From positions 1 to 36,165 of the forward strand of contig CANGOE010000023.1 of the NCBI GenBank assembly GCA_947455455.1: 36,165 nt of DNA, in the 5' to 3' direction. Of this stretch, positions 34,678-36,165 are shown in pieces. The DNA comes from Hyphomicrobiales bacterium (GTDB lineage: Bacteria > Pseudomonadota > Alphaproteobacteria > Rhizobiales > Beijerinckiaceae). The position numbers and the translations under genes are program-made. Numbering within the stretch: position 1 is the stretch's first letter; each line of letters starts with the position of its first letter. The notes beneath the pieces are model-generated. The model searched no databases. It was not told the origin of the DNA and was given only the letters and a program-made list of their open reading frames with translations.

Positions 34678-35619
34678 TTAATTGATGAATTTATAATGTC
34701 CGCAGAAGCTCTTGTAGGAGTGCTCGAGGATTTTGACGCCGCCGCGCTGGCGGATCACCTCTGCGGTGCGGGTGCCCAGATCGGCCGCCTGTGATGGAGC
34801 CGAGGTTTCAACCGCCGTCACGCATTCCTCGCCGTTGAGCGAGGTCACCTGTCCGGTCAGCACCAGATTGCCGTCTTTCCATTCCGCATTGACACCGACC
34901 GGCAGGCTACAGCCCGCGCCCAAAGCGTGGAGCATAGCGCGTTCGCAATCGACCTCGGCCCGTGCTTTGGGACATTCGATGTCCTTCAGAATGGCAAGGA
35001 TATGATCGTCTTCGGCCCGCGCCTCGATGCCGAGCGCGCCCTGACCGACGGCATAGGGGAACACTTCGGGGGCCATCACCTCGGCTTTGGCGGTGCCCAT
35101 ATTCAGCCGTTGCAGGCCTGCATGGGCCAGAATCACCGCATCAAGTCCGTCCTCGCCATCAATGCGCGCCAGACGGGGACCGATATTGCCGCGGATGGGA
35201 ACCACATTGACATCGGGCCGCAGGCTGAGAATTTGCGCCTTGCGCCGCAACGAGCCTGTCCCGACTGTTGCCCCCTGTTTCAGATCGGCCAAAGTCGTGC
35301 CGCACAGGATATCGCGAGGATCCTTGCGCTCGGGCACGGCGGCCAGCACAAGCCCTTCGGCGAGGTTGGTCGGCAGATCTTTCAGGGAATGGACGACAAT
35401 ATCCACCTCGTGCGAGGTCAACTGCTGTTCGTGCTCGGTCGAAAACACCCCGACAATGCCGAATTGGTGGAATTCGGATACGCGGTCTTTGTCGGCGATG
35501 GTGGTGATGGAATGGAGCGAGAATTCGGCTTCGGGATATTTCTGCTTGATCAAATGGATGACGTAGTTGGTCTGTGCCAATGCCAAAGGACTACGTCGAG
35601 TGCCGATCTTGATGAGCAT
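34678..35619 (-). CDS. hemC: hydroxymethylbilane synthase (porphobilinogen deaminase)
   Basis: A 313-residue cytoplasmic enzyme that joins four porphobilinogens into hydroxymethylbilane in tetrapyrrole synthesis. IGTRRSPLALAQ opens the protein, VVHSLKDLPT holds the catalytic Asp81, GTGSLRRKAQ and IRGNIGPRLARID supply substrate-binding arginines, and Cys237 in GAGCSLPVG attaches the dipyrromethane cofactor. The flexible-loop motif usually written GGKGLF reads GIVGVF (54-59), with Val56 in place of the conserved Lys. The ATG at 35619 follows AGGTGAATTTG; a GTG at 35628 overlaps that ribosome site. It stands alone, without hemD or hemE beside it. Confidence 0.95.
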   Translation of the reverse strand: MLIKIGTRRSPLALAQTNYVIHLIKQKYPEAEFSLHSITTIADKDRVSEFHQFGIVGVFSTEHEQQLTSHEVDIVVHSLKDLPTNLAEGLVLAAVPERKDPRDILCGTTLADLKQGATVGTGSLRRKAQILSLRPDVNVVPIRGNIGPRLARIDGEDGLDAVILAHAGLQRLNMGTAKAEVMAPEVFPYAVGQGALGIEARAEDDHILAILKDIECPKARAEVDCERAMLHALGAGCSLPVGVNAEWKDGNLVLTGQVTSLNGEECVTAVETSAPSQAADLGTRTAEVIRQRGGVKILEHSYKSFCGHYKFIN

Positions 35620-35801
35620 CAAATTCACCTGAAAGCGGATAGTTAATCAATAATATCAATGAAATAACCGATTAACCATCATCATATTTGCGGTATCAGC
35701 TAAAGCAATCGGGCCAAAGTGTCAACGGATCGGGGCGGGCAGGACAGTCGATTGGCGGCCCATTCAGGGGCCACTTTAGGCTAGGCTGAACCGCTTTGAT
35801 G

Positions 35802-35871
35802 ACAAATGTGGTGGGCCCGGCAGGAACAAATGTGGTGGGCCCGGCAGAAACAAATGTGGTGGGCCCGGCAG
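35802..35871. repeat. three tandem 24-bp repeats derived from the tRNA-Ile 3' end and flank
   Basis: A 22-bp unit beginning ACAAATGTGG and ending CCCGGCAG occurs at 35802-35823, 35826-35847 and 35850-35871, each separated by two variable bases (period 24). The third copy covers the CCA end, the 3' acceptor strand and the first T-arm bases of the tRNA gene. The other two copies lie downstream of the tRNA in its transcript direction. The array could come from slippage or from repeated recombination at a tRNA-end attachment site. Confidence 0.95.
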
Positions 35872-35932
35872 GACTCGAACCTGCAACCAGTCCGTTATGA
35901 GCGGACGGCTCTAACCATTGAGCTACAGGCCC
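35857..35932 (-). tRNA. tRNA-Ile with CAT anticodon (lysidine type)
   Basis: A 76-base tRNA gene with encoded CCA. The acceptor GGGCCTG pairs with CGGGCCC, the D arm contains TAGCTCAATGGTTAGAGC, the anticodon stem GTCCG/CGGAC encloses the loop CTCATAA (anticodon CAT), and the T arm has GGTTCGAGTCC. The loop and the D-arm resemble the minor isoleucine tRNA whose C34 becomes lysidine to read AUA, not initiator or elongator Met, so Ile is the better call. The 3' end is part of the tandem repeat array. Confidence 0.93.
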
Positions 35933-36037
35933 ACATTATGTCCGGATACGCATACCGCTACACGCATCATTCTTAATCCGATTTTTGACAGGAGTGCAAC
36001 GGGGTCGTGCGGGGGTTCACAAGTTTGGCAACCGTGA

Positions 36038-36154
36038 TCACAGGTGAGCCGCCTTCACAAGACACTTGCCGCAAGACAGGCGGACAGTATAGACACGGGG
36101 CAACAGGGCGATCTGTCCCTCACGTGTGGTCTCAAGCTCATAAGGGTCCATCAT
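36038..36154 (-). CDS. possible small protein with CxxC motif
   Basis: A 38-residue open frame with two adjacent ATGs (36154, 36151) and an upstream in-frame stop. The product is MMDPYELETTREG, then QIALLPRVYTVRLSCGKCLVKAAHL in two parts, with a CGKC pair. No clear ribosome site and no recognised family. It lies upstream of the tRNA gene near the window edge. Codon use is not decisive at this length, so it may be a chance frame. No other feature is seen in 35933-36165. Confidence 0.2.
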   Translation of the reverse strand: MMDPYELETTREGQIALLPRVYTVRLSCGKCLVKAAHL

Positions 36155-36165
36155 GGCCGCTCATC

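Follow-up and report, generated by a model that had tools for sequence, protein, structure and literature searches.

How did the 3' end of one tRNA gene come to stand three times in a row, and do the additional copies matter to the tRNA that precedes them? The question arises near one end of the window, by which we mean the whole 36,165-bp stretch of DNA analyzed here, that is, contig C23 of a draft genome (2.71 Mb in 127 contigs, estimated to be 86% complete). A preliminary description had suggested, as the source of the repeat, mobile elements that integrate at tRNA 3' ends and leave att copies behind, had named slippage as the alternative, and had proposed that the extra copies compete with the mature fold of the tRNA. 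We consider it highly probable that a recent local tandem duplication in one lineage, by slippage or unequal exchange, left the tRNA gene intact and added copies that probably have no special function.

The tRNA gene lies on the minus strand, with bounds of 35857-35932 (anticodon CAT) according to ARAGORN and 35860-35932 according to Rfam. ARAGORN labels it 'tRNA-Met', a label that we consider less likely. Among the four E. coli CAU tRNAs used in the identity comparison (ileX, metT, metU, and metZ), the gene is closest to ileX (58 identities in 76 columns), followed by metT and metU (53/77) and the initiator metZ (48/80). Because of this resemblance, Ile(CAU) is the likelier name, and the identity given in the preliminary description is better supported than Met. 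A tRNA of the Ile2 (CAU) type presumably reads AUA codons here. At the gathering score, the tRNA was the only Rfam match across the window. The opposite (plus) strand at 35859-35932 scored 32 bits (E 8.6e-05) against the Rfam family Plastid-ycf2 5UTR, which has a gathering score of 65.7, and this match is probably a tRNA-like look-alike. Promoter and terminator scans of positions 35600-36165 found neither. The next gene downstream, hemC, adjoins the same tRNA end in three congeners (G098, G069, and G121), although with about 1.3 kb more DNA between the two in G121. On the upstream side, the final 54 bases of the window (36112-36165) are found again, at 98% identity, where contig C106 of this genome begins, which is probably an assembly overlap that reveals the upstream neighbor.

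Features of the tRNA-hemC region, in coordinates of the window
Feature	Coordinates	Strand	Description	Source
tRNA gene	35857..35932	-	CCA encoded; anticodon CAU; tRNA-Ile2 (CAU) the most likely identity	ARAGORN; Rfam RF00005 (69.9 bits); nearest E. coli ileX
Unit 1	35850..35873	-	end of the tRNA gene (17 nt: 3' T-arm strand, 3' acceptor strand, CCA), then 7 trailer nt	TRF, script
Unit 2	35826..35849	-	additional copy, TTCT for TCCT	TRF, core search, script
Unit 3	35802..35825	-	additional copy, same as unit 1	TRF, core search, script
Net 48-bp insertion	35802..35849	-	excess over congener G069, in the tRNA-hemC spacer	spacer lengths of 158 vs 110 bp
hemC	34678..35628	-	porphobilinogen deaminase, next gene downstream	Pfam PF01379 and PF03900

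The array occupies positions 35802-35873 on the minus strand and consists of three contiguous 24-bp units arranged head to tail, with a single mismatch in 72 bases. TRF called it with a period of 24, 3.0 copies, 95% matches, and no indels, and its score of 137 is the highest of the 15 TRF arrays in the window (the next best scored 63). In the 5' to 3' direction of the minus strand, the first four bases are TCCT in units 1 and 3 and TTCT in unit 2, the rest of the three units being identical. A 21-base core, searched with up to three mismatches permitted, was recovered in three places, all of them exact, and in none of 100 dinucleotide-preserving shuffles; the three-fold repeat is real and exceeds chance expectation. 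Unit 1 contains the gene's own end, and units 2 and 3 lie entirely inside the trailer. Thus, the three copies at 24-bp spacing that had been reported earlier were confirmed, but the '22-bp unit' given for them is 2 bp short, as the copies are contiguous and the unit has 24 bp. The state of the assembly gives some reason to suspect the array itself: the genome is a draft in 127 contigs and probably metagenome-assembled, the window stops at a contig end 233 bp upstream of the tRNA, and a contig of the congener G098 ends within the 3' end of the same tRNA. Nevertheless, an assembly or sequencing artefact is improbable. The mismatch private to unit 2 speaks against a plain k-mer loop; the flanks align cleanly to those of G069, and a length of 72 bp fits into an ordinary sequencing read.

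We compared the site among five species of the genus (one genome per species, including the window's own), in which the relatives found via hemC (G098, G069, and G121) are metagenome-assembled genomes. The closest congener with the whole site, G069, has a single copy of the unit, and the flanks of the array in the window align cleanly to it. The distance from the CCA to a conserved mark upstream of hemC is 158 bp in the window and 110 bp in G069, a difference of exactly 48 bp. Because 158 = 110 + 48, the window carries a clean net excess of two additional units. The tRNA end is likewise single in G121 and G030, in which the downstream DNA differs (in G030, it belongs to another context). The contig of G098 opens on the final 16 nt of the tRNA, followed by a remaining spacer of 111 bp, and this genome was left out of the copy-number comparison because its contig starts inside the tRNA. 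An intact copy of the tRNA was not found in the G098 assembly, and variation at this site, perhaps a repeat there as well, might have broken the assembly. The additional DNA in G121 (about 1.3 kb, positions 1517-2900 of the locus taken from contig C27) begins within 1-2 bases past the CCA and contains a DUF1828/DUF1829 gene, preceded by a reading frame that is broken by an in-frame TGA; inspection by eye revealed no tRNA-end copy at the far side of this insert. The preliminary description had expected simple slippage to show itself as variable copy number in related genomes that have no element at the site. With one genome per species, the comparison speaks to half of this expectation, at the level of species and not of strains.

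Elements that time after time integrated site-specifically at the tRNA 3' end and were excised could, in principle, have left att copies, and elsewhere in the order the same tRNA does serve as an integration site, in line with the general claim of the preliminary description. Seven genomes of the order sample contain more than one exact 20-nt tRNA end per contig, and 11 places in five of them were compared (five full and six partial copies, at a threshold of our own choice of 66/76 identical positions), with G233, G408, and one more place in G387 outside this set. A full copy is accompanied by one or two partial copies on the same contig in G387, G541, and G161, and G365 has two partial copies on one contig; G486 has two full copies. 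Integrase matches were found close to such copies: in G541 at about 170 bp past the full tRNA, in G161 at about 350 bp from the partial one, and in G365 next to a further tRNA copy, on contig C151. No integrase is among the matches listed for the G365 contig with the two partial copies, and the integrase match between the copies in G387 is found only below the cut-off. In the region 5.92-5.95 Mb of contig C1 of G387, one full and two partial Ile(CAU)-type tRNA ends follow each other in steps of 10-11 kb, an arrangement that looks like elements stacked at one tRNA. The last 22 nt of the tRNA also occur in 53 stretches of IMG/VR contigs (at the same threshold, 18 full, 29 partial, and 6 at an edge), and 18 of the 29 partial stretches share 45-49 nt with the consensus. 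Since match lengths to the consensus stop at a variable position even in full genes, each copy was compared to the full tRNA on its own contig. We relied on the cellular copies because the remaining IMG/VR stretches may include other tRNAs.

The cellular copies do not resemble the array. Set against the full gene of its own contig, each partial copy matches over a block that ends at the CCA: 48 and 22 nt in G387, 48 nt in G541, and 49 nt in G161. Past the CCA, the match continues for 4 and 2 nt (G387), 1 nt (G541), and 0 nt (G161). In G365, the two partial copies agree with each other over 49 nt and also for 14 nt past the CCA. The blocks of 48-49 nt start in the anticodon arm, whereas the array unit starts in the T-arm, includes just 17 nt of the tRNA, and extends 7 nt past the CCA. 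Neighboring copies in G387, G541, G161, and G365 are 10-59 kb apart, whereas the array units recur every 24 bp with nothing between them. Using an exact search, we found the 22-nt unit core with its trailer in no IMG/VR contig, and no plasmid record matched the 86 nt across the array. The site itself holds no integrase or other element DNA, as hemC follows the tRNA directly and, after subtraction of the 48 bp, at the spacer length of G069. Integrase matches were present in 31/31 genomes; among those listed, the closest to a tRNA-region match on its contig lies about 326 kb off (G055), and in the window's own genome (G000), none of the three listed out of five matches is on contig C23. Because the integration copies at this tRNA differ from the array in both extent and spacing, the att-scar origin put forward in the preliminary description is unsupported, and we regard it as very unlikely. 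Slippage, which had been named there as the alternative, is the better reading, given the contiguous units and the 48-bp excess over the single-copy site of G069.

The survey for similar arrays covered 774 distinct genomes from the family or the order (two samples of 397, with 20 in common), which makes 773 without the window's own. The exact tandem pattern (GGGCCCACCA twice, with 4-34 bases between) occurred at a tRNA in 0/773 of them, and the one positive among the 397 family genomes and the one among the 397 order genomes were both times the window's genome. Genomes with a different tRNA end could not match this pattern, and its reach can be judged from the 120/397 genomes of the order sample that contain the exact 20-nt tRNA end; in the family, 190/199 genomes match the tRNA region at E <= 0.001, some of them weakly. 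A pattern match in G108 was not counted, as it is located on a different contig from the tRNA of that genome and the 3-kb stretch contains no tRNA. In the window's own genome, 30 distinct tRNA genes were listed: that of the window, one that lies at a contig end, and 28 others whose downstream DNA could be read; 2/32 tRNA matches are without a locus. The last 14 nt of the gene were repeated within 400 bp downstream in 0/28 of the other tRNA genes (best case: 11/14 positions), compared with 14/14 positions for the tRNA of the window. The trailer of tRNA-Arg(TCT) in this genome contains a short direct repeat, CTTGCTTTGCGAGT two times consecutively, possibly another slippage tract behind a tRNA. 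In the literature search, which reached few subscription papers, no title or abstract start dealt with tandem arrays of this short kind at the end of a tRNA.

A local tandem duplication accounts for these observations, because the array has the structure and length that such an event produces: three gapless, near-identical 24-bp units head to tail, and a single copy with the same flanks at the orthologous site (110 bp in G069, equal to 158 - 48). Slippage as the mechanism, the order of the events, and the neutrality of the copies are what we infer from there. In G069, the unit's first four letters, TCCT, follow the unit exactly 24 bp from the unit start. At a direct repeat of this kind, the polymerase may have slipped and duplicated 24 bp, in which case the segment comprising the tRNA 3' end and 7 bp of trailer would have been copied beside itself. 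Three copies would then have resulted from another such event between the repeats, which had become longer, either by slippage during replication or by unequal exchange. The tRNA gene, which ends in unit 1, would have been kept intact throughout, and the two additional copies in the 3' trailer are probably cut away during 3' maturation. The array in the window is followed by CATC at the place that corresponds to the TCCT at offset 24 in G069, with no net change in length. If the G069 state is ancestral, the four bases after the array changed later without altering the length. The TCCT microhomology could also be due to chance, for which we estimate odds of about 1 in 256 at a single specified position.

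Neutrality of the copies has to be weighed against a role in folding, in which the additional acceptor strands and CCA ends would pair with the 5' acceptor strand of the tRNA and regulate or delay its maturation. In the nearest-neighbor model, the competition that had been proposed for the fold is indeed seen. The free fold of a 124-nt precursor has a predicted energy of -51.0 kcal/mol, compared to -45.9 kcal/mol with the native cloverleaf imposed. Copy 3 is predicted to pair with the 5' acceptor strand at a mean probability of 0.98 in precursors of 124 and 154 nt, the native T-stem is at 0.145 in the 124-nt precursor, and the T-arm carries a 48-nt insert in this fold. With trailers of 24 and 48 nt, the native acceptor stem has probabilities of 0.967 and 0.947 in the single-copy G069 vs 0.001 and 0.000 in the window. 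The same calculations, however, make ordinary precursors misfold as well. The native acceptor stem fell below 0.5 in 10/28 other tRNA precursors of the genome with 78-nt trailers (it was at least 0.5 in 27, 26, 21, and 18 of the 28 with trailers of 0, 24, 48, and 78 nt, respectively). It dropped to 0.035 in the single-copy G069 at 78 nt, and the single-copy G030 has 0.43 without any trailer. In a 224-nt transcript, the pairing with copy 3 was lost (0.003). Nearest-neighbor folding leaves out tertiary contacts, modification, and co-transcriptional folding, in which unit 1 is made first, and the exact-pattern survey found the array in no relative.

Hence, the model shows fold competition that is weak as evidence. 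An effect on folding in the cell is conceivable but unsupported, because the native half is transcribed first and the tertiary contacts are ignored, and we hold a regulatory or delaying role to be most unlikely. A more specific version, in which the repeated 3' ends would act as decoy acceptor strands, with the 5' half of the tRNA pairing with copy 3 in the uncleaved precursor to give a tRNA-like fold that has a 48-nt insert in the T-loop, and with trailer cleavage setting the amount of tRNA, would be more doubtful still and has hardly any probability in our estimate. If the array did alter maturation, nature would have set up an experiment on the degree of mispairing with the trailer that a tRNA gene tolerates. 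Returning to the local duplication, we consider the array to be an ordinary short tandem duplication, so far known from one lineage, and of little importance beyond being a clear small example. It illustrates that not every duplication of a tRNA 3' end has to be the scar of a mobile element, and that extent, spacing, and flanks tell the two apart.

Among known systems, the nearest case is tyrTV of E. coli, in which copies of a tRNA gene's 3' end also follow downstream in direct orientation. This locus is known as rttR/tpr, and its spacers carry the annotated genes rttR and tpr. In K-12 MG1655, a 2.2-kb stretch contains the last 19 nt of tyrV six times (two of these are the tRNA genes' own ends), with four copies in a row at 178-bp steps. 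The E. coli unit thus measures 178 bp and includes spacers, whereas the unit described here has 24 bp, is contiguous with the next, and leaves no room for a gene, so that a 178-bp unit with a spacer RNA or peptide gene is not what we found. The matches listed for positions 35640-36165 in an Rfam search at E <= 10 include no tyrT-type RNA family. The partial copies left by elements resemble the array in that the duplicated tRNA 3' end reaches the CCA; for prokaryotes, such remnants of element integration are described in PMC9897764. Within this order, however, these copies mostly start in the anticodon arm, extend 0-4 nt past the CCA, and stand 10-59 kb apart, whereas the array starts in the T-arm and repeats every 24 bp without an element. 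The likeness is closest to short slippage duplications, with which the array shares contiguous and near-identical units, occurrence in one lineage only, and perhaps the direct repeat seen in a relative. Nothing essential separates it from them; that the repeated segment includes a tRNA 3' end is incidental.
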